Origin: an uncultured Lachnospiraceae bacterium
GTDB taxonomy: Bacteria; Bacillota; Clostridia; Lachnospirales; Lachnospiraceae
Assembly: GCA_947575805.1 (NCBI GenBank)
Contig: CANPOY010000001.1
Coordinates: 62,001 to 126,000, forward strand
Length of the DNA stretch: 64,000 bases
Direction of reading: 5' to 3'
Shown here piece by piece: positions 27,454 to 58,683 of this stretch. Each line of letters starts with the position of its first letter. The stretch's first letter is position 1. The notes below the pieces were generated by a model. That model was not told where the DNA came from and made no database searches. It was given only the letters and a program-made list of their open reading frames with translations. The position numbers were made by a program, and so were the translations under genes.

Positions 27454-27489
27454 ATGCTTTCCTTCTTTCCGTTAAAATCTTTATATCTT

Positions 27490-28704: not shown

Positions 28705-28707
28705 CTC

Positions 28708-29454: not shown

Positions 29455-29465
29455 TTTCCCGTCAC

Positions 29466-31396: not shown

Positions 31397-31407
31397 CTCC
31401 CTTTCAT

Positions 31408-34453: not shown

Positions 34454-34489
34454 GCTGCCTACCTCCTGTCAGAACATTCTCTTCCCTTC

Positions 34490-35533: not shown

Positions 35534-35556
35534 ACATAATCACCAAACCAAACATT

Positions 35557-36672: not shown

Positions 36673-36685
36673 AACATTTTCCTCC

Positions 36686-38053: not shown

Positions 38054-38115
38054 ATACTTCTTCTCCTTACTACGGATTTAAACAGCAAAATCAAACCTGA
38101 TAATTGTATATGGCG

Positions 38116-39732: not shown

Positions 39733-39747
39733 AGTTAAAACACACTC

Positions 39748-41019
39748 CTATATGTTTTGAGCCAATTTTACGATTTCACAGACTGCGTTTCGTGCATCTT
39801 CTTTTGCCCTCTCCGTACCTATCGTTAATCTGCTCTTTAAGACTTCACGGTTTTTTTCTATATACTCAATTTTTTCTTTGATCTTTTCAAACGTAACCGG
39901 ATTATCCACGATTAATTCTCTCAAGCCCAGATTATCAAAAACACCCTGCGCTTTCGTACCATGGTAAACCATACCGATCGTAATTGTTCCTGCGGCCATT
40001 GCAAATATTGTAGAATGCAGTCTGGTACCGATAAAATAATCCATGTTCCCATAGGTCCATTTCAATTCTTGCGGAAGAAAATGCTCTTTATGATACACAA
40101 CCCCTGAACGAATATCTTTGGTTAATGAACCAACAATTGCTTCTGCGCATTGGTTATCCGGTTCATTATCCATAGCCACCTGTTGGAAAATATGCACGCA
40201 TGCACCCGACTCTACGATATATGCAATGACTTTTTTCATACATTCTATATATTCATCACAATTTCCAAAGCTTCTTACGGTCAGTCCCACATTGCGTATG
40301 TCCCTGTTGAACGGAAGATTTTTCGGTTCTGTTTCTTCTAATAGAAACGCAATATCATTTGAAAATTTGACATTTTCTAGATCCAGGGTTATATCAGGGT
40401 ACAATTTCCTGCATTCGGTCTCCCTTATGAACACTCTGACAGCCCGCGCAATTACCCTGTTGGTATGTTTGATTTGCGCCCTGGATCTGATCGGCCCAAA
40501 CGATTGGCCCAAAATGCAATAAGGACAATTAAATTTGTACAGCAAATCATATGTTCTGCACATTCTTCGTAATCCGATTGCACCACGCAATGTATTATCG
40601 TCAGTAAAAATGCTTCCTCCCTTTGAGAAACAGACATCGCAGGAAATCAGAGCTTTTAACGTTTCACGTTCATTTCTCGCCAAAAAAATCAAACCGATTT
40701 TCCGAGGTAATAGCATAATGAGAAAACATCTTACGCTTTCCCAGATCATTGCTAATGTTTTTGCAATGATTCCCTGATGGTATTTATTGAGAATTTTGAT
40801 TCCGTATATGCCAAATATGGCAGGATATATATCCGGAACAAACTTTCTCAAATCCTTGTGACTTTCCGCAAAGCAGGGATCCTCCCGGTTATAACAGGAA
40901 ACACCTATAATTTCCGCGGAAGGATCCTGTCTCTTGATTTCTGCCACTGTAGCCAACATAATACCCAGATCACCTTTGTTCAGATCATCCCAGCAATCCA
41001 GCATTGCATATTTTGCCAA
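39748..41019 (-). CDS. Polysaccharide pyruvyl transferase family protein
   Basis: NKGDLGIMLATV; CFSKGGSIFTD; YFIGTRLHSTIFAMAAGT. Confidence 0.83.
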   Translation of the reverse strand: MAKYAMLDCWDDLNKGDLGIMLATVAEIKRQDPSAEIIGVSCYNREDPCFAESHKDLRKFVPDIYPAIFGIYGIKILNKYHQGIIAKTLAMIWESVRCFLIMLLPRKIGLIFLARNERETLKALISCDVCFSKGGSIFTDDNTLRGAIGLRRMCRTYDLLYKFNCPYCILGQSFGPIRSRAQIKHTNRVIARAVRVFIRETECRKLYPDITLDLENVKFSNDIAFLLEETEPKNLPFNRDIRNVGLTVRSFGNCDEYIECMKKVIAYIVESGACVHIFQQVAMDNEPDNQCAEAIVGSLTKDIRSGVVYHKEHFLPQELKWTYGNMDYFIGTRLHSTIFAMAAGTITIGMVYHGTKAQGVFDNLGLRELIVDNPVTFEKIKEKIEYIEKNREVLKSRLTIGTERAKEDARNAVCEIVKLAQNI

Positions 41020-41043
41020 TTTTTCTCCTCCTGCAGCAAGACA

Positions 41044-42309
41044 TTAGATTTCTTTCGCTCCCTTAATACATCGCAGTTCTTTATAATATCCAAAATACAA
41101 ACTGAGAGCAAAATAAAGTACATAGCAAATTAATGTGGATTTTAATAAAATATCAACACCATAATCGGCGATACATAACCAATTGGTCCCCAGCTTTATT
41201 ACTCCCAGCACGGCAAGAATAACAACGTTAATAATGTTGTTTTTTACATAGGACTGATATGTCATATTAATAGCCCCCCACTGCCTGAACATCTCCGATA
41301 GCGCCAAAATGCAAAACATATATCTGTAGTCAAGGTAATTAGATGCACCCATAATCATATAAATATATTTACTGAAAACAATAGTTCCGACACAAAGCAG
41401 GGCCACTACAAAAATAAATACTTTATAGAGAGTTTTCATCAATTGATATTGTTTGTTTTCCATTTTTTCAAAATAGAACCTTGGCCAATACTCCATGATT
41501 ATTCCTGTTCCGATCCGAATAACGGTGATAATTCTAAATCCCACCGAATAATATGTCAGTGTGACTGCATCTAAATATTCGTTGATCAGCATTTGATCCG
41601 CTGCCCCCAACAGCCACACAACAATGGCGTTAAAAGATAGCGGCAAGGCATATTTGACCAATTCGGAAGCTCTTACCGCCGGCAGCTCGTCCTCTGATTT
41701 CGTGAGACCTTTTGCTTTGTCGCATAAAGTATAAAATATGGCAACGATGCAATAAGAAGCGCCGATTGCCAGCAGCACTGTTTTTTCATTTAAGCACTTT
41801 ACTGCAATTAGCGCCACTAAAGCCGCCAGCGATATAGCATACTGTATGATCTTGATCCTGCCGTATGTTTTAATGTCCATTTTGGCTCTGAAAAAGTATA
41901 AGCGTTCCGACATCCACATCGAGCCAAAAAACAAAACATACATTGGTTCCTGAAAGCTGATAAACGAAAGCAATATGAATAATAAAGATGCTATAGCCAG
42001 TATCGCTCTGACCGATTTCATTAAGCTTCTTTCATTACTAAACCCAACGAATCTTAAGTAGGAACTGTATATTTCCATTGAGCAGACACTGATCAGTAAT
42101 GTCAGTACCGATTGCACATACGAATATTGTCCCAACGATTCAAGCGGCATAAATCTGTTGATCAAAACGTTTTGTGCATACAATAGCAAGTATGCAAAGA
42201 AATTATTTATAAAAAATCTCCATATTACTTTAAACTCCTCTTTCAGCAATTTATCTGCTTTTGAAAATATTTTTTTTTGAAGCATTTCTCTCATCGATAC
42301 TTTACTCAT
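41044..42309 (-). CDS. Oligosaccharide flippase (Wzx-like, MATE/MOP fold)
   Basis: 421-aa multi-TM protein, NVLINRFMPLESLGQYSYVQSVLTLL. Confidence 0.78.
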   Translation of the reverse strand: MSKVSMREMLQKKIFSKADKLLKEEFKVIWRFFINNFFAYLLLYAQNVLINRFMPLESLGQYSYVQSVLTLLISVCSMEIYSSYLRFVGFSNERSLMKSVRAILAIASLLFILLSFISFQEPMYVLFFGSMWMSERLYFFRAKMDIKTYGRIKIIQYAISLAALVALIAVKCLNEKTVLLAIGASYCIVAIFYTLCDKAKGLTKSEDELPAVRASELVKYALPLSFNAIVVWLLGAADQMLINEYLDAVTLTYYSVGFRIITVIRIGTGIIMEYWPRFYFEKMENKQYQLMKTLYKVFIFVVALLCVGTIVFSKYIYMIMGASNYLDYRYMFCILALSEMFRQWGAINMTYQSYVKNNIINVVILAVLGVIKLGTNWLCIADYGVDILLKSTLICYVLYFALSLYFGYYKELRCIKGAKEI

Positions 42310-42318
42310 ATAAATCAG

Positions 42319-43411
42319 TTATCGCTCCTTCACCCAGCTGCCTATTGCCCGGCCTAAACAATCTGAAGCTGATTTGATTGGCCGAATGAATAGAAAAGCA
42401 GCACAGCAGCCTGCAGCGTATACGGCTATAACCAGAATCAAAACCGATAATAAATAATTCTGGTTGGAATCCGTACGAATGATCCTGGGCAGCCACTCAA
42501 CATACTGGGTTTTAATCATCGGGTGCATATGGAACTCATAGATTACCAGGCTGAAACCACTAAGTACAGACAGAATCTTTTTCGGTTTCACTTCCAGATT
42601 CCCCACCGCCATAAACAACCCGATTGCCATGCCAATTACGAAAATCGAATTGTAGTGATAAAAGTATTGTTGATTTCCCCTGTTCAATATTTCAAATATG
42701 GATACCTGCTTAAACAGGTAAAACGATAAAATCAGGGCTGTCACGCACCCCCCCCCACACAGCAAGCCCTCTTCCTGCGCGGAAAAACCGTTCCGGAAAT
42801 TTTTTCGCATATCCAGCCACAAGATATAGCCAGATGAAGAGGCCAAAATAACTGCTTTCCCAGACTCCCTCCAGCACAGTCGGCATAATAACTACAGGAA
42901 CAATACCGACAAATAATAATCTTCTGAACTGTGTGTTGTCCAAATGCACCGTCAGCTTGTCAAGGAAGGGTGATAAAAGCATTAATATCAGGTAGGTTGA
43001 TACATATCCATATGCCCGAAAAGAAAAAGGAAACATGCAGTTCATAACAGAGACTGCGTTTATACTGCTTCCGGAAACAAAAAATGCCGCAATGAATCCA
43101 ATCAGGGTTATCGTAAGCGTGGTTCCATATATATACACATATTGCTTAATCGGAATCTTTTTCCGGCTCATCAGAAAGGCACCGCACAAAACGAATATGT
43201 GGATTGCCGGATATGCTAATGTTTCTAAAATGATATAAGCAAATTCAAAATTACTATTTACAATCGTTTCTTTCCCTTGTGCTATATATCCGTCGACATG
43301 CAGCATAATTACAAAAACCGTTGCCAAAAGTTTTAAGCAGTCTATCCCGACTTTTCTTTCCTGACTTGTTCCTTGCATTTTCGTAAACTTCCTCTTTCGT
43401 ATTTTCATCAC
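42319..43411 (-). pseudogene. Acyltransferase-3 family membrane protein, reading frame split at a G9 tract (42748-42756); possibly phase-variable
   Basis: N-terminal ORF 42710-43411 (GIDCLKLLATVFVIMLHVDGY) and C-terminal ORF 42319-42846 join as ...GLAVWGG|CVTALILSFYLFKQ if one G is removed. Confidence 0.82.
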
Positions 43412-43442
43412 TTTTCCGTGAAATCAGCAGAAATCGGAACAT

Positions 43443-44615
43443 TCAGCATTTTCCGCTGAAATACTCCAAGTACTCAGCATATCTTTCCCATTTGTCATAT
43501 GTTTTGGCCTGTCCCTGACATTGCTCAGAGGTAATTCCCATATCCGCAATATCATAAACCGCCCTGACAAGGCTTTCATCATCGCCTTGTCCAACCACCA
43601 GGCCGCATTTCCCCACTGACTCCGGAGAACCCCCTGTATCGAATGTTATCACTGGTGTTCCACATGCCAAAGCTTCTAAATTAACAGTAGGGAAATTATC
43701 GGCCAGTGTAGGATTCACAAATACATCGGCAGCCGTATACCACTCGCATAGTTCTTTCCTGTCACTCGTTCGGTCGATATGAATAATATTAGCAATGCCT
43801 GTATCCTGATTCTTTCCAATCATTACGCACTGATACTTCTCGTTCAGTCTGTCTGCCAGCTTATAAAAATGATACATGCCTTTGGTTTCGGACCAAATCC
43901 CTGCAACGCCGAGAACAATCTGTTTGTTTCCTAATCCGTATTTTTCCCTGAGATTAGATTCTGTGCGCTTAAAAACCTTCAAATCAATGCCGTTTGGGAT
44001 CACTTTTACCGAATAATCCCTCAAAAAAGATTTTTCAACCAACTTGGATAACCAATTTGACGGGGTGATCAGGAAAAGGTTATCCATGCCCGAGAAGACT
44101 TTCTTTTTCAGCAGATAATTGCTTTTAGAATTATCTATAAGTATGGATTTGGGATATTCCTTTTTTCTCGGACAGCTGCCGCATCCTCTATCCAGATGAT
44201 CGCACATACCGGCGATGCAATGTCCGGTAAAAGCCCAACAGTCATGCAGCGTCCAATACGTTTGTCTTCCGGACCTGCGAATATAATCAAACAGCATGGG
44301 AATATTCATTGTGTATCCCAGCGGGTCATGTATGCTGATAACATCCGGTTGAAATTCTTCTATATCCTTAATAAGCCCGGATGTCGCCATCCTGGACATC
44401 CTTCCCATATTATCGAATAATCTTGCCGAAAGTGCATGCAGATACACATCCAGTTGATTTCCTATCTGATAATGATTTATGCCGTCCGGCACGTTCCCCC
44501 TTGCACTGGCAAATCTTACTGTATGCCCGCTCTTTTCTGCTACAAAATACAACTCAGAAGCAACCGTATCCGGACCGCCGCTGCCCCATCCCGAATTCAA
44601 AATATATAGTCTCAT
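43443..44615 (-). CDS. Glycosyltransferase family 4 protein
   Basis: VIPNGIDLKVFKRTESNLREKYGL; ADVFVNPTLADNFPTVNLEALACGTPVITFDTGGSPE. Confidence 0.9.
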   Translation of the reverse strand: MRLYILNSGWGSGGPDTVASELYFVAEKSGHTVRFASARGNVPDGINHYQIGNQLDVYLHALSARLFDNMGRMSRMATSGLIKDIEEFQPDVISIHDPLGYTMNIPMLFDYIRRSGRQTYWTLHDCWAFTGHCIAGMCDHLDRGCGSCPRKKEYPKSILIDNSKSNYLLKKKVFSGMDNLFLITPSNWLSKLVEKSFLRDYSVKVIPNGIDLKVFKRTESNLREKYGLGNKQIVLGVAGIWSETKGMYHFYKLADRLNEKYQCVMIGKNQDTGIANIIHIDRTSDRKELCEWYTAADVFVNPTLADNFPTVNLEALACGTPVITFDTGGSPESVGKCGLVVGQGDDESLVRAVYDIADMGITSEQCQGQAKTYDKWERYAEYLEYFSGKC

Positions 44616-44676
44616 CTTCTAAATCTGGTAAGCGCCTGAAAGCTCCTCTCGTTTTATACAATTACCGTCCCTGCAG

Positions 44677-45822
44677 CTATCTGCGAATTCTTTTTTCGAG
44701 CCCTAAAAACTCATAAACCCTGATTCCGATACGGAATAATTTTTCATGGCTTTTAAATTTTTCCGTACATTTATCCATATCATGAAGCTGCATCAATTCT
44801 TCCTCACTGATTCGAAGCTTTCCGGCAACCTCACGAAACAGCTCTTTGCTTTCTTCTTCGGTCAATGGGGGCTTTTCCAGTATTTTCAATGCTTCGTCTC
44901 TGGACATTTGCCCCGTCACCACCAGGCCCGAAAGATGGACCCGGCGTAAATCATGGCCGAATCTGGTTGGCTGCCACCAGCCCTCCAGGAACTTTGTGAT
45001 TAAGTCTTCAAAATGCTTTTGCCCATATGGCACATAGCCGTATTCATCTCTCAGAGTCTTTATCATGGACTCCTTTGTGAATTCGACTAAGTTCAGGGGC
45101 TTGATAGTCTTAACACCCTTCACATATGGAATCCAGAATTTGTGCTTAAATCCTGTCGTAAAAGTATACTTTTTGATAGGAATTTTACAGTACTTTTTGA
45201 TCACGTCTTTTAAGTAAGCGGCATCACCTGTAGGTCCCCCGTCTGAAGCCCAGGAAGCAGGATCTGCAACGCTTTCTGTCATAATATTAAATCCGTTTAA
45301 AATATATTTCACCCCTAACCGCTGCGAATACTCATCGATCACAGCAATAAAAGCGTGATCCTGAGGGGCATCCAGGCTCTCCATACCAGTACGCATCCAG
45401 GCAAGCTGCATTTCGCGCATCTCATCCCAGTCCATTTTTTTAACATGTAATTTAACACCTAATTTATTGGTGATTTTTCTAATGTTTTCTTCCGCCACCG
45501 GAAGATTCCACCCTGCATCAATATGAAACACAAAGGGTCTCAATCCCCACTCTTTTACAGCCAGATGCAGCATGTAGGAACTATCCAGACCTCCAGAAAG
45601 CCCTAAAATGCAGTCATATTTTTTCCCCTTGCCGCTTTCCTTCACCTTTCGAATTAAATCAGAAAGTTCTTTTTCGTGTCCCTTTCCATAATTCCACTCC
45701 GGCAAAATGCGCCTGGCGTATTCCCTGCAGCGCATACATACGCCGTTTTCATCAAATGTAATATCCTCGTCAGATGTATCCATTACGCAGCATTTACAAA
45801 TTTGATATGGTCTCGTACTCAT
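44677..45822 (-). CDS. N-acetyl sugar amidotransferase (WbpG/WbuX family)
   Basis: ICKCCVMDTSDEDITFDENGVCMRC; PP-loop LGLSGGLDSSYMLHL. Confidence 0.88.
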   Translation of the reverse strand: MSTRPYQICKCCVMDTSDEDITFDENGVCMRCREYARRILPEWNYGKGHEKELSDLIRKVKESGKGKKYDCILGLSGGLDSSYMLHLAVKEWGLRPFVFHIDAGWNLPVAEENIRKITNKLGVKLHVKKMDWDEMREMQLAWMRTGMESLDAPQDHAFIAVIDEYSQRLGVKYILNGFNIMTESVADPASWASDGGPTGDAAYLKDVIKKYCKIPIKKYTFTTGFKHKFWIPYVKGVKTIKPLNLVEFTKESMIKTLRDEYGYVPYGQKHFEDLITKFLEGWWQPTRFGHDLRRVHLSGLVVTGQMSRDEALKILEKPPLTEEESKELFREVAGKLRISEEELMQLHDMDKCTEKFKSHEKLFRIGIRVYEFLGLEKRIRR

Positions 45823-45873
45823 TCTTTAATATCCCTCCATATTGTATGATGAGCAAATGCTCTTACTCTGCTT

Positions 45874-47040
45874 TCACTTTCTCCACACCATCCTGTTTAT
45901 AATGCCTGTATAACTCTGGATAATCTTAATAACCTTAGCGCTTACATTATTATCCGTATATGAGGGTACATCCGCCGGGGCATCACCGTTGGCGTTCATT
46001 GAAACTGCAAGGTCCACCGCCTGGAGTACCTGGTCCGTTGTGATGTTCCCAATCGTAAATACGCCCTTGTCCATGGCTTCCGGACGCTCTGTACTCGTTC
46101 TAACGGATACCGCCGGAAATTTAAAGTACGCGGCCTCTTCCGGAATTGTTCCGCTGTCGGAAACTACACAAAAGGCATTCTTCTGAAGTTTGTTATAGTC
46201 AAAAAAGCCCAGCGGCTTATGCTGAATCACTCTCTGATCAAATTTGAATTTTCTTGCTTCGATATACTTTTTACTCCTGGGATGACAGGAGTAAAGAATC
46301 GGCACATCGTAATTCTCAGCCATAGCATTCACTGCATTCATCAGGCTGAAAAAATTGGATTCAATATCAATGTTCTCTTCACGGTGTGCGGATAACAGGA
46401 TATACTTCCCTGCTGCAAGACCCAATTCATCAAGAATTGTGCTTTGTTCTATCTTATTCCTGCACCTGTCCAATACCTCTGCCATTGGAGAACCGACCAC
46501 ATAGGTGTATTCCGGCTTCACTCCGGAATCAAGAATATACCTTCTCGCGTGTTCCGAATAGCAAAGATTAATATCGCTGGTCACATCGACAATGCGGCGG
46601 ATAACCTCTTCCGGAAGGTTTTCATCCTTACAGCGATTGCCGGCCTCCATATGAAATACAGGAATCTTCATACGTTTTGCTGAAATTACGCACAGGCAGG
46701 AATTGGTATCGCCAAGTACAATAAGGGCATCCGGCTTAACCTGATCCATAAGCTCATATGACCTGGAAATAACATTTCCCATGGTCTGACCAAGATTCTC
46801 ACCCACCACACCCAGATAGTAGTCAGGCTCCCGAAGGCCAAGCTCCTCAAAAAAGACCTTATTCAATTCGTAGTCATAATTTTGACCGGTATGCACTAAA
46901 ATCTGATCAAAATACAAATCAGCTTTCTTAATGATTTCGGACATCTTAATGATTTCAGGCCGGGTGCCTACAATCGTCATCAAGCGCAGTTTCTTAACTT
47001 CCACAGGTAGATACTCCTCATCCAATTCAGATTTTTTCAT
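45874..47040 (-). CDS. Non-hydrolysing UDP-GlcNAc 2-epimerase-like (FnlC/WbvD type)
   Basis: TIVGTRPEIIKMSEII; HTGQNYDYELN; VFHMEAGNRCKDENLPEEVIRRIVD. Confidence 0.88.
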   Translation of the reverse strand: MKKSELDEEYLPVEVKKLRLMTIVGTRPEIIKMSEIIKKADLYFDQILVHTGQNYDYELNKVFFEELGLREPDYYLGVVGENLGQTMGNVISRSYELMDQVKPDALIVLGDTNSCLCVISAKRMKIPVFHMEAGNRCKDENLPEEVIRRIVDVTSDINLCYSEHARRYILDSGVKPEYTYVVGSPMAEVLDRCRNKIEQSTILDELGLAAGKYILLSAHREENIDIESNFFSLMNAVNAMAENYDVPILYSCHPRSKKYIEARKFKFDQRVIQHKPLGFFDYNKLQKNAFCVVSDSGTIPEEAAYFKFPAVSVRTSTERPEAMDKGVFTIGNITTDQVLQAVDLAVSMNANGDAPADVPSYTDNNVSAKVIKIIQSYTGIINRMVWRK

Positions 47041-47901
47041 TCATCCCATATCATAATGGGGGTATAATTCCTTATGTCCCCGCATCCACTCACCCAATTC
47101 TTTTATCTGCTGCTCATATCCTGGTATCTTATAGCTGAAGAGCTCATAATTCGTCCTCTTCAAGCTCTTATCAATTTTAAAATTCTCTTCCGGAACTATT
47201 TCTATCTCATCACGCCGCAGATACTTGTTGAAAAGAACAAGCATATCATATTTGCTTATCTTATCTTCCGGCACCATATTGTATAGTCCATGGACTTTTT
47301 GAATCACCGCATTCTCAACGGTTTTAGCAAGCTGAAGAGTCGTCTGTCCTGTCCACATCGCATTTTTATATCCTTTAACCCGCCCCTTCTGCTGCATAAA
47401 CCAGTTAATAAGCCCAATACCGTCCCTGCAGGTATCCGGCCCTACTATAGACATACGAAAAGTTACGTCTTTATTATTTATAATCTCTCCGAGAGCCTTG
47501 GAACGGTCATAAAAGAGTTCTCCGTCCGGGAAGTCCGACTCTGCATATCCCCCTCTGCTCCCGCTGAACACGCAATCCGTGCTGATGTGTATGATCTGAG
47601 TTTCAGAATTCTTTGTGATTTTAGCCAAAAACTGTGGCAGATACGAGTTCAGATATACTGCCGCCTCATGATCGTTCTCAGCAAACTTATTCAGTAACCC
47701 AACGCAGTTGACAACAGCACCGTAATGACCATTTTCAATCGTACGATCCAGCAACCCGGTATCCCTTGCGTCGCCCACAATCGTATGAACAAACAGGGAT
47801 TCTTTCCTGGCAAATCCATCAACCTCATATCCCTGCTCTTTCAGATAGAGGCTGATGGTATGACCAGCCATACCATTACAGCCTAAAACCAGGAATTTCA
47901 C
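47041..47901 (-). CDS. RmlD-like SDR reductase (FnlB/WbvR type)
   Basis: KFLVLGCNGMAGHTISLYL; ISTDCVFSG; YDRSKALGE. Confidence 0.84.
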   Translation of the reverse strand: MKFLVLGCNGMAGHTISLYLKEQGYEVDGFARKESLFVHTIVGDARDTGLLDRTIENGHYGAVVNCVGLLNKFAENDHEAAVYLNSYLPQFLAKITKNSETQIIHISTDCVFSGSRGGYAESDFPDGELFYDRSKALGEIINNKDVTFRMSIVGPDTCRDGIGLINWFMQQKGRVKGYKNAMWTGQTTLQLAKTVENAVIQKVHGLYNMVPEDKISKYDMLVLFNKYLRRDEIEIVPEENFKIDKSLKRTNYELFSYKIPGYEQQIKELGEWMRGHKELYPHYDMG

Positions 47902-48937
47902 CGCCCACCTCCAGCTGCTCTTTCACATAATCCGTAGTCAAAAGTTTCTTCACCGTTGCTTCCACATCAAGCCGTACCGTATTATGGCTTGTATATGCCT
48001 CATCGGCTTGTGTCTGAACCTGTCCTTTTATGAAATACTTATCATAATTCAAATCACGGTTGTCAGACGAAACTCTGAAATACTGCCCCATATCCTCCGC
48101 CCGTAACCGTTCTTCCATTGTCAGTAAGGTCTCATACAGTTTCTCCCCATGGCGCGTACCGATAACCCTCGTCCCCGTGTCACCGAATAACTGCTGAACT
48201 GCCTTTGCCAGGTCTCCTATCGTACAGGCATCTGCCTTTTGTACGAATAAATCTCCCGGTCTGCCATGTTCAAAAGCAAACCCGACAAGATCAACCGCCT
48301 CGTCCAGGTTCATCAGAAACCTGGTCATATCAGGATTCGTAACCGTTATAGGATCTCCGGCACGAATCTGGTCAACAAACAATGGGATAACCGAACCGCG
48401 GGAACACATTACATTCCCATAGCGCGTACAGCATATAACCGTGTCGCCACGCTCAGCCGCCACACGGGCATTCGCCGTTATAACATGCTCCATCATCGCT
48501 TTGCTGATGCCCATGGCGTTAATCGGATATGCCGCCTTGTCAGTGCTGAGGCACACAACCCTTTTCACCCCGGCTTCGATAGCGGCATGCAGCATATTAT
48601 CTGTTCCTTCAATATTCGTCTTAACAGCCTGCATTGGAAAAAACTCGCAGCTCGGGACCTGCTTTAAGGCGGCGGCGTGAAAGATATAATCAACTCCGGG
48701 CATAACATCTGCTATTGACCTCGGATCACGCACATCACCAATGTAAAATTTGACTTTGGCGGCATAATCAGGATACCTGGCCTGCAGCTCATGCCTCATA
48801 TCGTCCTGCTTTTTTTCGTCACGGCTGAAAATGCGGATCTGTGCTATATCTGTTGTCAGAAAGTGTTTCAGCACCGTATTTCCAAAGGATCCCGTTCCTC
48901 CCGTTATTAATAATGTTGCACCATTAAGACTTGACAT
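47876..48937 (-). CDS. UDP-GlcNAc 4,6-dehydratase/5-epimerase (FnlA/CapE/WbjB type)
   Basis: LLITGGTGSFGNTVLKHFL; STDKAAYPINAMGISKAMMEHVI. Confidence 0.88.
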   Translation of the reverse strand: MSSLNGATLLITGGTGSFGNTVLKHFLTTDIAQIRIFSRDEKKQDDMRHELQARYPDYAAKVKFYIGDVRDPRSIADVMPGVDYIFHAAALKQVPSCEFFPMQAVKTNIEGTDNMLHAAIEAGVKRVVCLSTDKAAYPINAMGISKAMMEHVITANARVAAERGDTVICCTRYGNVMCSRGSVIPLFVDQIRAGDPITVTNPDMTRFLMNLDEAVDLVGFAFEHGRPGDLFVQKADACTIGDLAKAVQQLFGDTGTRVIGTRHGEKLYETLLTMEERLRAEDMGQYFRVSSDNRDLNYDKYFIKGQVQTQADEAYTSHNTVRLDVEATVKKLLTTDYVKEQLEVGGEIPGFRL

Positions 48938-50150
48938 TTAAATTCTCCTTTATGAAAATTTCGTCCAACCGATTCAAAAGTTTTTCTTTATTAAAATGTT
49001 CCTTGGAATAGGACAGGGCATTATGTCCTAGTCTCTCACACTCACTCTTTGGCATTAGAGACAACGTTTTTATATTTTCCACCAGGCCGTCAACATCTTC
49101 GGCAGCACTGGCCAGGCCTGCCTGTGCGTTCTTTATTATTTCCTGGACTTCTCCATCAGCCGAAACCAATATTGGCCTCCCGCAAGCCAGACAGGATTGT
49201 GTCTTTGCCGGGATAGTTATAGAAAACACTTCACTCTTCGACAGCGTTATCAATAAAGCATCCGCTGCCGCCAAATAAGGGGGAATCTGTTCGGCAGGTT
49301 TTCTGTCAATAAAATTAAAATATTCCTTTACTTTGCGATCCTTAATTTCTTCTTCCAGTTTCTCCTTATATCTTCCGTCGCCAATGATATTGAACCTGAC
49401 TAATATGTTTGCTGACTTCAGCTTCTCTGCAGCCTTCGGCAGAATACCCAGCCCTTGCGCATACCCGATATTACCGGCAAAAACCAGATTAAAAACCCCG
49501 TCAGCCGGTATCTCAGAAATGCTTATTCTTTCCGTAGGATGGTAAAATTCCTCAGCATATTGAGGCCAGAATTCAATTCTCTCCGGCGGTATATTGCGCT
49601 TTTTTATGGGAGATATGAAGCTGTTTGAGCATGTGAGAATTTTTGATGATCTTTTATAAATGTAATCAACCATCTTCTGGATTGCCCCAAGGAATAATTT
49701 ATTATGAATCCCTGTAATAATCTCAACATTTTCAGGCCATAAATCTGTCACGTACAAAATATGCGGTATCTTGTTTTTTCTGGCAAACCATACACCGACC
49801 AGTGCCTGAGTCATAGGTGAAACTTCAAAAGTAAATACGAAATCGGTTGTAAGATCCGTTTTCTTAACCCATTTTCTCCCCGCATAAACGAATGAAAGGT
49901 AATTCCTGATCAGTCCGATCGAGCCTTTTTTCCGCGGTTCAATTGGTAATCGTATTATCTCCATCCCGTTCCACTTCTCATGTCTTCTTTCTGTTTTACT
50001 ATATCCTTCATAGTACTCGCCCTGCGGATAATTAGGAATTCCTGTTAATACCGTTACCTTGTATCCCCTTTTTACCCATTCGGAAGCTATATCATTTATG
50101 CGGAAATTTTCAGGATGGAAGTATTGCGATACAACGAGTATATGTTTCAT
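48924..50150 (-). CDS. Glycosyltransferase family 4, WbuB-like
   Basis: ILVVSQYFHPENFRINDIASEWVKRGYKVTVLTGIPNYPQG. Confidence 0.86.
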   Translation of the reverse strand: MKHILVVSQYFHPENFRINDIASEWVKRGYKVTVLTGIPNYPQGEYYEGYSKTERRHEKWNGMEIIRLPIEPRKKGSIGLIRNYLSFVYAGRKWVKKTDLTTDFVFTFEVSPMTQALVGVWFARKNKIPHILYVTDLWPENVEIITGIHNKLFLGAIQKMVDYIYKRSSKILTCSNSFISPIKKRNIPPERIEFWPQYAEEFYHPTERISISEIPADGVFNLVFAGNIGYAQGLGILPKAAEKLKSANILVRFNIIGDGRYKEKLEEEIKDRKVKEYFNFIDRKPAEQIPPYLAAADALLITLSKSEVFSITIPAKTQSCLACGRPILVSADGEVQEIIKNAQAGLASAAEDVDGLVENIKTLSLMPKSECERLGHNALSYSKEHFNKEKLLNRLDEIFIKENLNVKS

Positions 50151-50156
50151 TTATGT

Positions 50157-51152
50157 TTACCCTTCCGTCCTTTTTATACTTTCTTTTAAGTCAATGATCT
50201 GATACTGAAAATCATATATTGACATCGACGGGTCATAGGTCATATTTCCAAACGCCTTATCAGCCAGGCTGCTTATTTTGCCGGGAATATGAGACGCAAG
50301 ACCAACTGCCCAATTGAATCCCCTGCTTACCGATATTCTATGTCCGCCGACCTCGGCGATCATTTGAACAACTTTACTCGTCCTGCTGTATTCAGCGTTC
50401 TGTGGCCAGTACACACCGCCGGCATTCCTTATCATCACCTGACACAGAAATTCACATAGGTTTTCAATATACAGCATTGATCTTTCGTTATTTACATCCG
50501 GAAATATCGGAAGCTTCCTGGCCATCTTTGCCAGGGCAGGATAATTGCCTTTACTTCCTTTCCCATATATCATCGGTGGTCTGAGAACGGTGACAGTAAA
50601 CTTATCATCAATAAGCTCTCTTACCCCTTTATCTGCCTGCCACTTTGAGTCACCATAGAAATTAGCAGGAGACGGTTCCGTATCTTTCGTTATTCTTTTC
50701 TTCTTCCCATAAGGGGCAGAATCCCCGTATACAATAATAGAGGACATAAAGACAAACTGTTTTACGCCCTCTGATTTTGCCTTCTTTGCCGTCTCAATCG
50801 CCAGATGCGTATTCACTGCGTAGTATTTCTTCTTTGTCGCTTCATCCACATTCCCTATATCCGCATGGGCGATGCCCGCCACATGGAATACGACATCATA
50901 AGCAGAAAAATCCTTTTTCCGCCAGTTTGGATACTGCATATCCACGGTATCCACTGTAAAATCCGCCGGATAGTGCTCCCTCGCATAGGCTTCAAAGGAT
51001 TCCCCGATATAGGAGCCGGCACCGGTAATCAGCACCCGCTTTTCGTTTTTTTCACTGATGTCCTTGTGGAAATGCTCTAAATGCCTGTTATCTTCAAATC
51101 CGACGTCACCGCTGATTTTTCTCATTTCCGCTCCTGCTGCTTTCTCTGTCAT
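50157..51152 (-). CDS. NAD-dependent epimerase/dehydratase (SDR)
   Basis: VLITGAGSYIGESFEAYA; SSIIVYGDSAPYGKK; NFYGDSKWQAD; ATGA overlap with the upstream gene supports start at 51152. Confidence 0.86.
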   Translation of the reverse strand: MTEKAAGAEMRKISGDVGFEDNRHLEHFHKDISEKNEKRVLITGAGSYIGESFEAYAREHYPADFTVDTVDMQYPNWRKKDFSAYDVVFHVAGIAHADIGNVDEATKKKYYAVNTHLAIETAKKAKSEGVKQFVFMSSIIVYGDSAPYGKKKRITKDTEPSPANFYGDSKWQADKGVRELIDDKFTVTVLRPPMIYGKGSKGNYPALAKMARKLPIFPDVNNERSMLYIENLCEFLCQVMIRNAGGVYWPQNAEYSRTSKVVQMIAEVGGHRISVSRGFNWAVGLASHIPGKISSLADKAFGNMTYDPSMSIYDFQYQIIDLKESIKRTEG

Positions 51153-51817
51153 ACCATTCCTGTCTTGTCTGATTTTTCCCTGACCAGGCTCTTCCCCCGG
51201 TACTTTTCTTCCCCTCTCAGGACAACCCCTACAGTCCGCATCAGAATCCTGATGTCCAGCCACAAACTGAAATGCTCCACATAATAAACATCCAGCCGGT
51301 AGCGCTCCTGCAGGGAAAGATATATGTTCCCGCTTACCTGGGCCAGCCCGGTCATTCCCGGAAGCATGTCCAGCCTCCTCTTGATCACTTCGTCATAATC
51401 CGCCAGGGATTCCAGACGCTCCGGCCTTGGCCCCACCAGACTCATCTCCCCTTTCAGGACATTGAGGATCTGGGGCAGCTCGTCCAGCTTGCTCCTGCGC
51501 AGGAAGCGGCCCACCGGGGTAATCCGGGCATCATCCTTGGCCACCTCCTGCCCCTTCACCATTTTCTCCGAACCCGGCCGCATGGTCCTGAACTTATAAA
51601 TGCAGAAGGTGCGCCCCCGGTAGCCCGGGCGTTTCTGCATAAAAAAAACAGGCCCGGGGGATGTGGCCTTAATGGATACTGCTGTCACCAGAAACAGGGG
51701 GATACACGGTATTAAGATAACCATCGACACCATAATGTCAAAAAAGCGCTTTACACAACGCTGAAATCTTTTATTCTCCAACCTGCCCTCCATGCCGCAG
51801 CTTCGCTGCGACTTCAA
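51149..51817 (-). CDS. Initiating sugar-phosphate transferase (PglC/WbaP-type)
   Basis: [55 protein letters not shown]. Confidence 0.93.
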
Positions 51818-51834
51818 ATAGGAACAAAAATAGA

Positions 51835-51868
51835 AATGAAGAATGCCGCATTTCAGGCATTCTTCATT
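51835..51868 (-). terminator. Intra-operon hairpin with U-rich 3' flank
   Basis: AATGAAGAATGCC-N8-GGCATTCTTCATT (13-bp perfect stem) followed on the minus strand by TCTATTTTTG. Confidence 0.65.
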
Positions 51869-51875
51869 GTGTAAC

Positions 51876-52736
51876 TTAGAAATTCTTAGTCAGCGCACTT
51901 TGCCGGTTTAGATTTTCCTGACAAACTTCATACTCCAGGGGCAGCAGATAACCGTCCGCCAGCCTAATACCCCCTTCTGCAGGTTCCCTGCTGACATCCG
52001 CTTTCCAGATGATCATTTTCTCCCCGCCCCGGTCATAAAACGCTCCCGGGTAGGGGCGGGTCACTGCCCTCACCAGGCGCTCCGCTTCCTCCATCGTCAT
52101 TTCCGGCCTGATTTCACCGTCCTCCGGCTTCCTCCCCGGCCATTCCGTGGCGGCAGCATGATCCTGTTTCCGCAGCCGCACCGTATTGTTTACAATCGGC
52201 TCCCAGTATTTGCGGATCAGCTCGATGTGGGCGCCGTTTACCTTTTCATACAGTTCTCCGGCGGTAATCCGGGAGTCCAGTTCTATTTCTTCCTGGCCGA
52301 TGATGTCGCCGGTATCCACTCCGTTGTCCAGCTTGAACATGGTAACGCCGGTTTTCTTTAAACCCTTTAAGATTGCCCAGGGGATTGCCGCCCGGCCCCG
52401 GCCCTCCGGCAGCAGGGTGGGGTGCATCCCGATGCAGCCGTACTTCGGGCTGCTTAAAACCTTTTCCCCCGCAATCTGCGACCAGCCGATAATGAACAGC
52501 CAGTCAATTTCATATTCCCTGACGGCATCCAGAACCGCCTGATCATTGATATGGTTTGTTTTCAGCAGCGGCACGTGATGCCTGTCCGCAAGGTCGTCCA
52601 GGTAGATCCGGCCTGATTTGCTTTTTGCCTTTCCATCCGGCAGGGTAATCATCAGGTCTATCCGGCCGCCGATTTCATAGATTGCTTCTATGCAGCTCTT
52701 TCCCAGCTGGACACAGGTGGTAAACGCTATTTTCAT
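51876..52736 (-). CDS. Formyltransferase family protein (second copy in the locus)
   Basis: IGMHPTLLPEGRGRAAIPWAILKG...DNGVDTGDIIGQEEI; start MKIAFTTC at 52736. Confidence 0.82.
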   Translation of the reverse strand: MKIAFTTCVQLGKSCIEAIYEIGGRIDLMITLPDGKAKSKSGRIYLDDLADRHHVPLLKTNHINDQAVLDAVREYEIDWLFIIGWSQIAGEKVLSSPKYGCIGMHPTLLPEGRGRAAIPWAILKGLKKTGVTMFKLDNGVDTGDIIGQEEIELDSRITAGELYEKVNGAHIELIRKYWEPIVNNTVRLRKQDHAAATEWPGRKPEDGEIRPEMTMEEAERLVRAVTRPYPGAFYDRGGEKMIIWKADVSREPAEGGIRLADGYLLPLEYEVCQENLNRQSALTKNF

Positions 52737-52755
52737 TGATTTCCTCCCATATTTT

Positions 52756-53442
52756 CTAAATGGCCGAAACACGCCTGATGGCTGTCTGGAAGGCTTCGGC
52801 ATATCTGCACCCGGACTGTCCCCCCCTATGGGCCGCCAACCCCAGGATCCCTTCCCTGCTCCGGGGATGGGGATATGCCCTCATGACATTCCGATACTGT
52901 GAAAGTGCTTCTATTTTCTTTTCCACGCCTTCCTCGCCCACCTCGATAAAAGTATCGGGCCGGAAAGCATTCATGGCTGTATTCAGGGACCATTCCGTCG
53001 CAGAGGGTACTTCCATAAACAGCAGTTCCTTCAGCGGGGTGCAGTTGTCCGTCCGCTGGAAGAGGCGCGCTGCCTCCTGGCATGCCAGGGAGGTATGCAG
53101 GTGGTCATTGTTCAAATCTTCCGGGTGGTGGGTAATAATGACATCTGCCCGGGTGTCACGTATTGCCTTCTCGATAAACTGAACCAGCTCCAAATGGGGC
53201 ACCGTATTAAGCATGATATTGGGGAAATCCCCTGTAACCACCTGTTTTACCCCCAGCATCCTCAGGCTGGCCTCCATGTCATCCTGCAGTTCCTGGTCGC
53301 CCGGGCGGTTTGCCCTTGCCATGGCCTGCGCCGACAGAATACACACATTGACTTCTTTTCCCGATTGCGATAACCTGTATATCGTTGCCCCGGCGCCTAA
53401 TACTTCATCATCCGGATGTGCTGCAACAATTAAGTATGACAT
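52756..53442 (-). CDS. PIG-L/LmbE family deacetylase
   Basis: MSYLIVAAHPDDEVLGAGATI; THHPEDLNNDH; start at 53442. Confidence 0.88.
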   Translation of the reverse strand: MSYLIVAAHPDDEVLGAGATIYRLSQSGKEVNVCILSAQAMARANRPGDQELQDDMEASLRMLGVKQVVTGDFPNIMLNTVPHLELVQFIEKAIRDTRADVIITHHPEDLNNDHLHTSLACQEAARLFQRTDNCTPLKELLFMEVPSATEWSLNTAMNAFRPDTFIEVGEEGVEKKIEALSQYRNVMRAYPHPRSREGILGLAAHRGGQSGCRYAEAFQTAIRRVSAI

Positions 53443-53474
53443 ATATTCACCTTTCTCCTTATAAAGGGCCTGCT

Positions 53475-55013
53475 TCACATATCCGCCTTGCTATAGCAGT
53501 GCAGGATCACCTCCAGCACCTTATCCTGCTCTTCCTTCAGCATTCCTGCATCACAGGGCAGGCAAAGCCCGCTCTCAAAGTATTCCTTTGCCCTGTGGCA
53601 TCTCAGCCGGTAATCCTCCTCATAAAAATGCCTGTAACTCCACCTGCTGCCGTCCAGAGTAAACGCCTCGCAGTTCCTGAAAAGAGGCTGCAGGCTCAGG
53701 GGCTTATAAAGGGGACCGTATTTCCAGGGAATGTTGCCTCGCCGCGGAGTATCGCTGCTCCATGGAGTGTTAACCCTCCATGAGCCACGGCCCAAACCGC
53801 AGCCTGCATCCCCATAAAATGCAGCCAGGGCTTCTAGAATTTCCATCGGCGCCGCAGTCCCGTGCTGTCCCGCATAGGTATAATCCCTCTCGCCTCTGGT
53901 CTCCCGGAACCCGATACTGCTCTCCACTGTCATGCAGCTCCTCCAGTAGTTGGGTCTCGTCCCTTCCCCTATCGGCATCACTGCCGCAAGATCACCCTCC
54001 AGCTTATCAGCATACCTTTCATAGACAGCTCTCTTCTTTTCTATTATTTCATCCAGATGCCTGAGCTGGCCTCTGACTGCCGCCGCTGCCAGGTCGCCTA
54101 TCCGATAGCTGCATCCCAGCTCCTCGTGCTGATCCCAGGGCGCCGCCGTCCTGGCACCGCCTGCCCAGTAAAATGCCTTCTCCGCGCTGTACCTGTCATC
54201 CGTTAAGAGCATCCCGCCCGCTCCTCCGGTAAGGATCCTTCCCGGGCCGAAATCAAGAACAGCATAGTCCCCAAAGCATCCCGCTTTGCGCCAGAGGATT
54301 TCTGCCGGGCCTGATTCCTGCCGGCCATTCCCCGTCCCGTTCCTTTCCGGCCCTGTTTGCACCTCTGCTCCAAGGCTCTCCGCGCAGTCCTCAATCAGCA
54401 GCGCTCCATGTTCCTGGCAGATTCTCCGAATTTCTATAACCTGCCCCGGGCATCCGTAGGCATGATTCATGATGACAATCCCCGCTTCCGGATATTTGCG
54501 GAAGGCAAGCTCCAGCGCCTCCGGATCCATGGACCAGTCCGTTTCTCCACAGTCAATAAATACTGGCTCCCCGCCTTCATAAACCACCGGGACGACGGAC
54601 TCCAGGGCAGCAAAATCAGGACAGAACACACGCTTCCCATACAGTGCCCCGCCCCTGCCAGGTCCTTCCGGTGTGCAAATACCGCTGGCGCTGCCGTAGA
54701 GCCTTTCCCCCGCAAGCCTTAAGGCCAGGTGCAATGCAGCCGTACCGGAGCTTAACGGCACTCCATACTCCCTGCCGATATACCGGGCGGCTTCCCTTCC
54801 CAGCTCCTCCCCCTGGCCCCCGTCAAGTCCCGCCTCAAGAGCCTCGTTTATGAAGTTTCTTTCTTCCTCATAGCTCCCGACGGCCGACTGTCTTGCTTCA
54901 TTGCCGGGAATCTGATCCCTGTTAAAAATAGTATTGAACCTCCGCGTTCCCGGTCCCATTGTCATGGTATCTGTAATATACCTGCGCCCCATTATTAATG
55001 ATAATTTCAACAT
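53475..55013 (-). CDS. DegT/DnrJ/EryC1/StrS family protein with atypical PLP-lysine position
   Basis: PLSSGTAALHLALRLAGE; IEDCAESLGA; lysine motif region reads VLDFGPGRILTGGAGG. Confidence 0.82.
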   Translation of the reverse strand: MLKLSLIMGRRYITDTMTMGPGTRRFNTIFNRDQIPGNEARQSAVGSYEEERNFINEALEAGLDGGQGEELGREAARYIGREYGVPLSSGTAALHLALRLAGERLYGSASGICTPEGPGRGGALYGKRVFCPDFAALESVVPVVYEGGEPVFIDCGETDWSMDPEALELAFRKYPEAGIVIMNHAYGCPGQVIEIRRICQEHGALLIEDCAESLGAEVQTGPERNGTGNGRQESGPAEILWRKAGCFGDYAVLDFGPGRILTGGAGGMLLTDDRYSAEKAFYWAGGARTAAPWDQHEELGCSYRIGDLAAAAVRGQLRHLDEIIEKKRAVYERYADKLEGDLAAVMPIGEGTRPNYWRSCMTVESSIGFRETRGERDYTYAGQHGTAAPMEILEALAAFYGDAGCGLGRGSWRVNTPWSSDTPRRGNIPWKYGPLYKPLSLQPLFRNCEAFTLDGSRWSYRHFYEEDYRLRCHRAKEYFESGLCLPCDAGMLKEEQDKVLEVILHCYSKADM

Positions 55014-55244
55014 GCCTTCGGATTTCAGACCATAGCTCCGCCATCCATGGAATCGTTCCCGCTCATTCCGGACGGGAAGCCTGTCCCTTCAGGGCAGGCT
55101 TCGCCATCCATGGGTCGGTATCTTCCCACGGCTTCGTTCAGGACTATGGCAGGAATCAGGACCGGATCTCGCGCCATGGCAATCATCCGCCCGTCAGCCG
55201 TTTGTAAATCCTCTCCGCTATGTCATGCTTTAACCTCCAAATAA

Positions 55245-56054
55245 TTACTTGCCCGACATCATCTTTCTGGCAATTCCTGCCGGATCGACCTCCGTCCCGT
55301 CTTCTAAGACAGCCGAGGCACCTTTATCTTTCGGATACCAGTGCCCCTTCCCCAGGAGTACAAGACCCGCTTTTGCCATGTGCCCGTTGACTTCCAGATC
55401 CAGGTACGCCTTCTTCTTGCGTCGGTCAACTCTTACGATTCGCTCCTCGTATCCCTTCAGCGGGCCTTCCATAACCACACACTTCCCGTTCTCACAGTAC
55501 CCGTAGGACATCCGGATAACCCCTTCCCGGGGAACCTTCCCGATTTTCCGCTTTCCGGAGCTTTCTTGCCGAGATCCTGCAGGAAGTTCCTCTTCGACAA
55601 AATCACTTCCCGCCGTTTCTTGCCCCGGCTCGTCCTCATATCTGAAATTCAGCATGAAATCAAGGAACTCCGCTTCCTCTTCGCTTAAGTCAATCAGCAG
55701 GGTGTCATCCATGTCTCCGGGCACCCCGCCGGCATTTTTCTGCTCCGCCAGCTTCAGTTCCTTCATAAAGGACAGTATATCCCGTCTCCGCCTCACGATC
55801 AGGTCATGGAGCTCCGCCCGTCCCATATCCGATCGGATAAACACATAGCCAGGGAACAGCGGCCTGATCACCGTGTTGACGGTATCGTTCCACCACAGCT
55901 CCACGCAGGGGTAAAATACTGTCCCCCGTCCCTCCGGCAGGGACTTACGAATCACCTCGTACACTTCCCACTGCTTTAACACCTGTGTATACAGGACGCA
56001 ATAGCGATATTCCTTTTTTATGGCTGCCCGGCCATGATCCTCCCGGTTATTCAT
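55245..56054 (-). CDS. NusG/LoaP-like transcription antitermination protein (downstream paralogue)
   Basis: YRYCVLYTQVLKQWEVYEVIRKSL...RPLFPGYVFIRSD (NGN) and GPLKGYEERIVRVDRRKKKAYLDLEVNG (KOW). Confidence 0.8.
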   Translation of the reverse strand: MNNREDHGRAAIKKEYRYCVLYTQVLKQWEVYEVIRKSLPEGRGTVFYPCVELWWNDTVNTVIRPLFPGYVFIRSDMGRAELHDLIVRRRRDILSFMKELKLAEQKNAGGVPGDMDDTLLIDLSEEEAEFLDFMLNFRYEDEPGQETAGSDFVEEELPAGSRQESSGKRKIGKVPREGVIRMSYGYCENGKCVVMEGPLKGYEERIVRVDRRKKKAYLDLEVNGHMAKAGLVLLGKGHWYPKDKGASAVLEDGTEVDPAGIARKMMSGK

Positions 56055-56598
56055 GGATATGCCCCCTGCCTCCGACGGGTTGTTCCCCTTCAAAGCAGAA
56101 ACCGAGCTTCAACGGGTTTTTCCCCTCCAACAGGCTGCCCTCCAGTCTGGCGCAGCGCTTATGAAAATCTACATGCGCCACCTTGTCGGCTACCTTTGAC
56201 AGCGGCCCCGACAAAAAGACGGCTGCCTTCCTGCCGCTTTCCCCGTCTACGGACACCCTTGCCACGGAAAGTCCGATTTCTCCGCCATTATCACACAGCA
56301 GTCCCAGCAGCGCCTCCTCTTCCCTGTCCAGGGAAGCAACAAAGCTGCCGTCACTGAACAGAAGGCTTGTCCCGGTATTCTTTAACGTCTTTTGTACCGT
56401 CTCCGGTTCTTTGGTCTCAAGGAATACATACCCTGGAAAGCAGTCCCTAGCCATCTCCACGACCCTGCCCTGCCTCCTGCAGACAAAACGCTGCACCAGG
56501 TGGAAGCACCGGCTGCAGACTGACCCCGGGAGTCTGGCCCGTATCAATTCCTCTGTCTTCTGTTCCCTGCCTTCACCGGCATAGACTACACACCACAT
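56047..56598 (-). CDS. NusG/LoaP-like transcription antitermination protein (upstream paralogue)
   Basis: MWCVVYAGEGREQKTEELI...DCFPGYVFLETKE and LSGPLSKVADKVAHVDFHKRCARLEG; AAGGAGG RBS. Confidence 0.8.
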   Translation of the reverse strand: MWCVVYAGEGREQKTEELIRARLPGSVCSRCFHLVQRFVCRRQGRVVEMARDCFPGYVFLETKEPETVQKTLKNTGTSLLFSDGSFVASLDREEEALLGLLCDNGGEIGLSVARVSVDGESGRKAAVFLSGPLSKVADKVAHVDFHKRCARLEGSLLEGKNPLKLGFCFEGEQPVGGRGHIHE

Positions 56599-56732
56599 CG
56601 CTGCCAGCCTCCTTATATTAAGGAAAAGCATACCTTGCGGAAATTGTTGCTCCACTGCTTTTCCCACCACCGCCTCGCCAAACAGAAGCATGTTTCGGCC
56701 CAAGTCTTCCGCCGCTGCTTTCTAACAGTCGG

Positions 56733-56763
56733 AACACCCGGAAATTGCTGAAACAGCGGGTTT
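56733..56763 (-). promoter_or_regulatory. Leader RNA stem-loop candidate upstream of the NusG-like genes
   Basis: Minus strand AAACCCGCTGTTTCAGCAATTTCCGGGTGTT: outer CCC/GGG, inner GCTG-TTT-CAGC. Confidence 0.45.
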
Positions 56764-56779
56764 CTTAACTTTTCCGATA

Positions 56780-56962
56780 TGGAAAATACCTTGGTTAATT
56801 CCCAATTTTCTCTTGACAAACTTATCTCTCAATGTTATTTTTTACTTATTGGATTTTGGCTGTCTTTTGTGCATAAATACCAGAAATAAGCAGGACATTT
56901 TGTACAGCATGACAGTGTAACAGACTATTCGAAGAGTATGGAATTAACCAAGGTATTTTCCA
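56780..56962. promoter_or_regulatory. Candidate invertible promoter (inverton): 23-bp perfect inverted repeats around a 137-bp segment
   Basis: TGGAAAATACCTTGGTTAATTCC at 56780-56802 and its exact reverse complement at 56940-56962; internal plus-strand TTGACA (56813-56818)-N17-TATTTT (56836-56841). Confidence 0.8.
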
Positions 56963-57063: not shown

Positions 57064-57107
57064 TGCGACCATTTAGCGGCGGACAAAAGCCCCCCCGACT
57101 GGTCGCA
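57064..57107 (-). terminator. Rho-independent terminator of the transglutaminase-like gene
   Basis: TGCGACCA...TGGTCGCA stem followed on the minus strand by TTTTTCTTATTC. Confidence 0.75.
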
Positions 57108-57126: not shown

Positions 57127-58683
57127 TTAATAGGTATACACATTATGGTACAGCCTGCAGTACCCACCGCCCAGACGCTGCACCTGAAGCTGGATCATGA
57201 AGTTCTCCAACCCCAGTTTCTTTAAAGTCTCGCTCACGTACCCTTTCATGTAGGTTCCGCTGCTGTACGCCCTCTCCAAAGAGCTCCACAGAGATTCCGG
57301 GATCACGTTTACAAACTGCTGCTCTCCTGCCCCCGCCTCTTCAAGACGTTTCCCGCAGTCCTCATAATATTCCTCCACCGTATCCAGCACCTGATCCTCC
57401 GTAATGCCGGCCTTCTCCAGATTCTCCTTGCGCTTTTCCTCTTCACTCTGCTCTTCGTCTATCTCCACACTGTCGTAAGGATTTTCTTTACTTTGCCACA
57501 CCAGAGGCTCAATGGGATTCGGATTGATATAATTGTCCACAATACTGCTCCCCGGCTTCACAGGCTCCTCTGTAGACACATCCACGCAGGCAGGAAGATA
57601 TACGGCCAGGTCGGTACGGACATGGGTAGTTCCGAATTCTCTGTCCGATTTATTGTAATAGTCATAGGTGGACGGCTCCGTATCATCCCAGGTCACATCC
57701 ACATTGCGGTAAAGGCTTCCCATCTTTACAATATTCCACGCATGATCCTCCCCTGCATATCCTGTACAATAATAGCAGGGAATCCCCAACTGCTGCATCA
57801 AATATTGAAAGGCCCTGGAATAACCGGCACATACGCTTTTCCCCATCACGAGCGCACTGTATGCGCTCTGATCTATGGGCGAGGATGCCCTGTACTCTAC
57901 GATCTGTACCAGGGCATCGTGTATATACTGCTCCTTCTCATAATCGGTGCCCAGGCTCTGGGCGCCGGACAGAATCTGTAAAGCAGCGGCATCAAAATTC
58001 TGCTTTGCGGTGACAAGATCATCTGCCGTTTCATTATATTTTAACGTAATCTCCACACAGATCCCTGTCCGAAGATATTTACAGGAAAACTCCGCATCCA
58101 GCCAGAACAGCTCCGGATGATCGTTGTATACAGCCTCCACCACACCGGTAGCCTGATCCGTTGTCACTGCCTGGGCAGGCGTAAACGATGTATTCAGCAC
58201 CAGCGCATTGGCATACACCTGGCGATACAGCGTCTTCAACGTGTCATTCAGCATAGCATAATACGGATAGTACTCTGCCGGGAAACTCAGGCCCTCTCCC
58301 GTTTCCCCGGGTGCAAGGATACTGCCCAGATTGTCTGCTTCTTCCTGACCGATCTGCTCATTGTTGGCGGTAATCGGCTGATAACCCACAAGCCCGCCGA
58401 CGTCTGCCGGGATCTCCTGAGGGTAAGTGTCCGGTACAATATATTTCTCCCCGTCATTGCCCACCACGGAAATAATCGAGCTGATCGGTCTGTCCGGCTT
58501 TGCAGGGCCCGCCTGCATCTGCTGCACCTTTTCCGCCAGAGAAGCCGTCAGGGAAGGATTCAGCGCACATATTAATATCCCCAGACTGCCGGCAACCAAA
58601 ATCGCCACGATAACGCAGAAAATGTTTCTAATCAGTTTCATAGTTCCTCTCATTCCGCCGCCTGACAGCGGCTTATTCCCCAA
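57127..58683 (-). CDS. Transglutaminase-like domain protein, N-terminal TM/signal anchor
   Basis: SVCAGYSRAFQYLMQQLGIPCYYCTGYAGEDHAWNIVKMGSLYRNVDVTWDD. Confidence 0.82.
   Translation of the reverse strand: MGNKPLSGGGMRGTMKLIRNIFCVIVAILVAGSLGILICALNPSLTASLAEKVQQMQAGPAKPDRPISSIISVVGNDGEKYIVPDTYPQEIPADVGGLVGYQPITANNEQIGQEEADNLGSILAPGETGEGLSFPAEYYPYYAMLNDTLKTLYRQVYANALVLNTSFTPAQAVTTDQATGVVEAVYNDHPELFWLDAEFSCKYLRTGICVEITLKYNETADDLVTAKQNFDAAALQILSGAQSLGTDYEKEQYIHDALVQIVEYRASSPIDQSAYSALVMGKSVCAGYSRAFQYLMQQLGIPCYYCTGYAGEDHAWNIVKMGSLYRNVDVTWDDTEPSTYDYYNKSDREFGTTHVRTDLAVYLPACVDVSTEEPVKPGSSIVDNYINPNPIEPLVWQSKENPYDSVEIDEEQSEEEKRKENLEKAGITEDQVLDTVEEYYEDCGKRLEEAGAGEQQFVNVIPESLWSSLERAYSSGTYMKGYVSETLKKLGLENFMIQLQVQRLGGGYCRLYHNVYTY

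Follow-up and report, generated by a model that had tools for sequence, protein, structure and literature searches.

The locus described here raises the question of how a long surface polysaccharide operon is controlled when the promoter at its head points away from it. The window, that is, the whole 64,000-nucleotide stretch of DNA analysed, carries a gene cluster for a surface polysaccharide, ~30 kb long and confined to one strand (Table 1). Its Pfam assignments comprise DegT aminotransferases, PIG-L, formyltransferases, an initiating sugar transferase, Polysacc_synt_2, UDP-GlcNAc 2-epimerases, glycosyltransferases, an acyltransferase, a pyruvyl transferase, NeuB and a nucleotidyltransferase, and strand and spacing suggest that these genes form one transcript. 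Two NusG paralogues in tandem precede them, so that an earlier note on this DNA, which had placed NusG-like genes and a polysaccharide operon on the minus strand, is borne out. Both paralogues fall below the NCBIfam LoaP cut-off of 125 bits, with LoaP still the best curated model for each. The open reading frame of the first paralogue extends to 56703; we place its start at ATG 56598, since MWCVVY, the conserved beginning of NusG, starts at this codon, and by inspection an AGGAGG lies nine bases upstream. Between the second paralogue and the aminotransferase gene, the interval 55013-55140 folds at -57.3 kcal/mol (z -4.56) without an Rfam match, and the region 55013-55245 may be an attenuator or an antiterminator target. 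A simple stem scan of the minus strand from 57000 to 55000 gave no UNCG-type LoaP hairpin in the window leader, and an Rfam search of the region returned no known RNA.

Table 1 Features of the switch region and operon, in window coordinates.
Feature	Coordinates	Strand	Basis
Polysaccharide genes	26293..55013	-	Pfam
Strong hairpin between second NusG-like gene and aminotransferase gene	55060..55110	-	
Second LoaP-like NusG paralogue	55245..56093	-	LoaP model E 2.1e-22, 80 bits; UpxY model 6.4e-07
First LoaP-like NusG paralogue, likely start ATG 56598	56047..56598	-	LoaP model E 1.5e-18, 67.4 bits
Predicted ON-state leader, 296 nt, AGGAGG at ~56608-56613	56599..56894	-	In silico flip; ribosome-binding site by inspection
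Left inverted-repeat arm TGGAAAATACCTTGGTTAATTCC, operon-proximal	56780..56802	+	
Segment predicted to invert, 137 bp (183 bp with arms)	56803..56939		Inverted repeat and both orientations at homologous loci
Promoter TTGACA-N17-TATTTT, extended -10 (TG), facing away from operon (OFF)	56813..56841	+	
Right inverted-repeat arm, exact reverse complement of left	56940..56962	-	
Intrinsic terminator of upstream transglutaminase-like gene, insulating the switch	57064..57107	-	-26.9 kcal/mol, z -2.98
Upstream neighbour, transglutaminase-core protein, outside the switch	57127..58683	-	

The element that separates this operon from its upstream neighbour is bounded by two arms that are complementary at 23 of 23 nucleotides (100%) with 137 nt between them, exactly the perfect repeat that the earlier note had reported. 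It is the best inverted repeat of the window, with a score of 23, whereas 60 dinucleotide-shuffled versions of the complete window do not go beyond 15, and the arm itself is absent from the window shuffles. The arms stand at the spacing of invertons (~100-400 bp apart), and the segment between them holds, as inverton segments do, an internal promoter with one strong direction. A search for further copies of the arm, proposed in the earlier note, yielded none beyond these two in the 2.99-Mb assembly (92% complete, one genome of this species) with up to three mismatches allowed. By inspection, the arm has a core ACC-AA-GGT with partly symmetric half-sites GGAAnnnACC. It contains AACCAAGGT, which may resemble Hin-type sites (the literature searched gave no printed hix sequence). 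Sites of the Din family (hix-like) are 26-bp imperfect palindromes with a core AACC-AA-GGTT and a 2-bp crossover. A search for an 18-mer of the arm through 85,462 named genomes and through viral contigs yielded scattered single copies only, with no inverted pair where checked. Across 138 genomes of the genus, pairs matching a hix-like pattern (WACCWWGGTW at a spacing of 120-150) are no commoner than pairs matching the reversed control. Weak DNA-search matches to two loci of relatives (L004, L005) were rejected as chance.

As sequenced, the best promoter match on the minus strand between 56600 and 57140 is TTGAGA-16-GAAAAT (9/12). When the segment is flipped in silico, its promoter moves to the minus strand, at 56929-56901, 296 nt ahead of ATG 56598, and as a 10/12 match it becomes the best on that strand in the same interval. 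The SigA-like plus-strand promoter within the segment, its position after inversion and a leader of roughly 300 nt are thus all recovered where the earlier note had put them. The same holds for the terminator said to insulate the operon, a hairpin with a 10-bp closing stem and a U-rich tract behind it. We infer that the segment promoter, once inverted, would be the main promoter of the operon.

Homologous loci display the two orientations that such a flip would produce. Four loci in two related genomes (L050, L051, L052 and L098, in G019 and G041) have a common segment of ~168 bp. Between L051 and L052, both from G041, this segment is 90% identical when reversed and 55% identical when compared directly, and the flanking sequences align without reversal; the segment is therefore reversed within unchanged flanks, and its promoter points in (ON) or out (OFF). 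L050 and L098 have the orientation of L052, and among the four the promoter TTGCAA-17-TATAGT, with an extended -10, faces the LoaP-like genes in L051 only. The G041 assembly is ~9% contaminated and L051 and L052 might stem from two organisms, but the opposite orientation at these homologous sites stands even in that case. In the OFF members L050 and L098 the promoter lies 30 bp from the segment end, and in the window it lies 33 bp from the segment end and faces away in the same geometry. A second, unrelated set behaves alike: L107, with its promoter in, aligns with L114 and L129, with their promoters out, only if reversed, the score of L107 against L114 being 32.5 inverted and 16.5 direct, with a shuffle maximum of 18.

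The architecture as a whole recurs among relatives. LoaP-like genes are rare beside housekeeping NusG in the 138 genomes of the genus, where, of 33 LoaP-like loci examined, the window, L048, L049, L050, L061, L086 and L098 have an inverted-repeat-flanked segment ahead of the operon; the same sites recur in L051 and L052, with arms that are slightly degenerate. In the wider family, such a segment is found at nine of the 29 loci fetched. The arms before these operons in genus and family measure 13-32 bp, and the family's switch loci typically hold two or three LoaP-like genes followed by sugar genes. Counting inverted repeats of at least 16 bp, 100 to ~450 bp apart and no more than 700 bp upstream of a gene, 9/64 LoaP-like genes have one, compared with 4/451 control genes (Fisher p 2e-6). 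This count is conservative, as second tandem LoaP-like copies are included among the 64. Of the four control matches, three are genes that head an operon of this type and the last is a duplicate. Itself aside, the first NusG-like protein of the window has its closest homologues in this switch group (~40% identity).

Several loci of these relatives have features of their own. In G029, two paralogous operons (L061 and L086) each begin with a helicase-like gene, followed by a LoaP-like gene and sugar genes, and each stands behind inverted repeats separated by ~305 bp, whose arms are related and end in ATTTTGCGAAAA. G041 and G019 hold several LoaP-like loci per genome, mostly as tandem pairs (L050-L057, L059 and L098), which suggests several alternative polysaccharides per cell, as in Bacteroides, with the contamination of G041 as a caveat. 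One contig of a relative starts exactly at a 30-bp switch arm (G037:C43:1-30), as would be expected if assemblers break at mixed-orientation reads or repeated arms.

Recombinase genes adjoin several of these segments. A small serine recombinase lies directly before the segment of L098, and in L050, L051 and L052 a small serine recombinase is encoded between the two NusG-like genes, with a second one upstream in L052. In L049 and L092 a tyrosine recombinase ends at the inverted repeat, and L111 has a tyrosine-recombinase fragment just ahead of its own repeat. The L092 gene (G128:C46, 10898-11953) ends in a 27-bp inverted repeat with 151 bp between the arms, and this repeat stands directly before an exopolysaccharide operon in which a CpsB-like gene comes first and a LoaP-like gene lies further down. 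Among related small serine recombinase loci (L132-L188), an inverted repeat lies close by at 27 of 57, and many of these repeats share a core near AAAGGTGTACTTTT; the loci adjoining such a repeat probably constitute a large set of self-contained inversion switches. In G056, a 30-bp arm with a AAAGGTGTACTTTT-like core is common to the recombinase-side segment of contig C12 and to the LoaP switch of contig C79, on which no recombinase was found. The pair offers a direct precedent for the trans action proposed for the window switch.

The earlier note had seen no recombinase in the window, and there are likewise no Resolvase or Phage_integrase domains anywhere on the contig that contains it (C1). 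The genome search that it had proposed gives one small and two large serine recombinases, together with three tyrosine recombinase matches: one broken by a stop, one partial and one an intact integrase-type gene on C4. The small serine recombinase (C6:78129-79037, or L043:12130-13038) has 302 aa with an N-terminal extension, scores 84.5 bits on the NCBIfam Mpi model, below the cut-off of 272, and is encoded in another polysaccharide region beside Wzz-like and sugar dehydratase genes. It is the best candidate enzyme for the window switch. No candidate segment with an inverted repeat was found beside the recombinases of this genome, and a search around them and the second LoaP locus gave no convincing site for the window arm with up to seven mismatches. 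The arm differs from the AAAGGTGTACTTTT consensus at the sites of the related serine recombinases. The second LoaP-like gene of the genome (L042, G000:C6:45560-46081) is without an inverted repeat and lies ~32 kb from the serine recombinase.

Taken together, the 183-bp element is very probably a site-specific inversion switch, an invertible promoter that turns the LoaP-like genes ON or OFF with the recombinase supplied in trans; inversion at this very locus is a prediction from sequence. A recombinase acting in trans would recombine the two 23-bp arms. In the OFF state, as sequenced, the promoter would direct plus-strand transcription away from the operon, and in the inverted, ON state it would fire on the minus strand through a ~296-nt leader into the tandem LoaP-like NusG paralogues. 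These would help the polymerase, presumably by antitermination, to read through the long polysaccharide operon. Since inversion would set the promoter ON or OFF, cells would be all-or-none for this surface polysaccharide.

Whether the switch still works is a separate matter. Its cognate recombinase might have been lost, leaving a vestige with the operon locked OFF or driven by another promoter, and the lack of a recombinase on the contig, of a further arm copy in the genome and of an inverted repeat adjoining the nearest small serine recombinase would all fit such a loss. We consider it unlikely, however, given that the arms still match perfectly over 23 bp, that the NusG-like and operon genes are open, that C6 carries a small serine recombinase, and that G056 offers a precedent for action in trans. 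The enzyme of an active switch could also be a tyrosine recombinase in place of the C6 serine recombinase, a variant that overlaps with the inversion switch favoured here. Tyrosine recombinases do adjoin other switches (L049 and L092), and the intact integrase-type gene on C4 would be available; this assignment is nonetheless doubtful, if clearly conceivable, as by inspection the window arm looks like a pair of inverted half-sites flanking 2 bp (ACC-AA-GGT), as in the sites of serine invertases, whereas the arms of the tyrosine-linked switches are long palindromes.

Readings in which the segment never inverts fare less well. The repeat could be static, two regulator-binding sites around a fixed promoter for an antisense or noncoding plus-strand transcript, which as sequenced would extend in the direction of the transglutaminase gene's 3' end. 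Sites that are perfect, 23 bp long and 137 bp apart argue against this, as does the same architecture in relatives that inverts and adjoins recombinases, and we regard a static repeat as quite improbable. A short segment with terminal inverted repeats also recalls a MITE-like transposon remnant with 23-bp terminal repeats, but the segment is single-copy in the genome, its borders are without a target-site duplication by inspection, and its internal promoter sits at the same place as in relatives. This reading was rejected on the single copy and has hardly any probability left.

An inversion switch at this locus would have both parallels to and differences from known systems. The window resembles the cwpV and flagellar switches of Clostridioides difficile, a Gram-positive anaerobe, which have short inverted repeats around a segment of ~150-200 bp and a recombinase encoded elsewhere (for cwpV, PMC2784873). 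It differs from them in that they employ a tyrosine recombinase and work largely by terminating transcripts, not by turning a promoter round. The capsule switches of Bacteroides fragilis (Mpi/UpxY) are alike in having an invertible promoter of ~200 bp, a NusG-paralogue gene in first place and a polysaccharide operon behind it, and their master serine invertase, Mpi, acts in trans, as is proposed for the window. In contrast to B. fragilis, the window appears to come from a different phylum, its paralogues are nearer to LoaP than to UpxY and occur in tandem pairs, no UpxZ partner is seen, the arm sequences differ, and the C6 candidate falls short of Mpi itself (84.5 bits against a cut-off of 272). 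In Bacteroidota an enrichment of UpxY genes beside invertons is reported, and invertons are less numerous in Clostridia-like genomes (PMC11892184). LoaP antiterminators, as in Bacillus velezensis, are NusG paralogues found next to long operons for biosynthesis (PMC7819879, PMC12691694); the window paralogues likewise open a long biosynthetic operon, but their leader is without the UNCG-type hairpin and both proteins are under the LoaP cut-off. Eggerthella lenta also has inversions that change the expression of capsule genes in relation to loaP, but these are megabase-scale inversions of whole clusters near loaP and not a promoter flip as proposed here (PMC13174815). The literature searched, with subscription journals outside its scope, held no report from this family of an invertible promoter in front of LoaP-like operons.

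A second family of NusG paralogues is now linked to inversion switches, and the exact loci are given for testing with existing long reads. We lean, by a little, towards a family-wide system of capsule phase variation in a large Gram-positive gut family, probably Lachnospiraceae to judge by its count of genera (at least 334 in the sample), in which many polysaccharide operons opened by tandem LoaP-like antiterminators stand behind invertible promoters worked by serine or tyrosine recombinases, in cis or shared in trans. If true, the system would parallel Mpi/UpxY of Bacteroides, but with recombinase classes that are interchangeable. Promoter inversion as a means of switching capsules is known best from Bacteroides, in which it influences resistance to phages and recognition by the immune system, and our results suggest that surface polysaccharides across a large Gram-positive family are also phase-variable.
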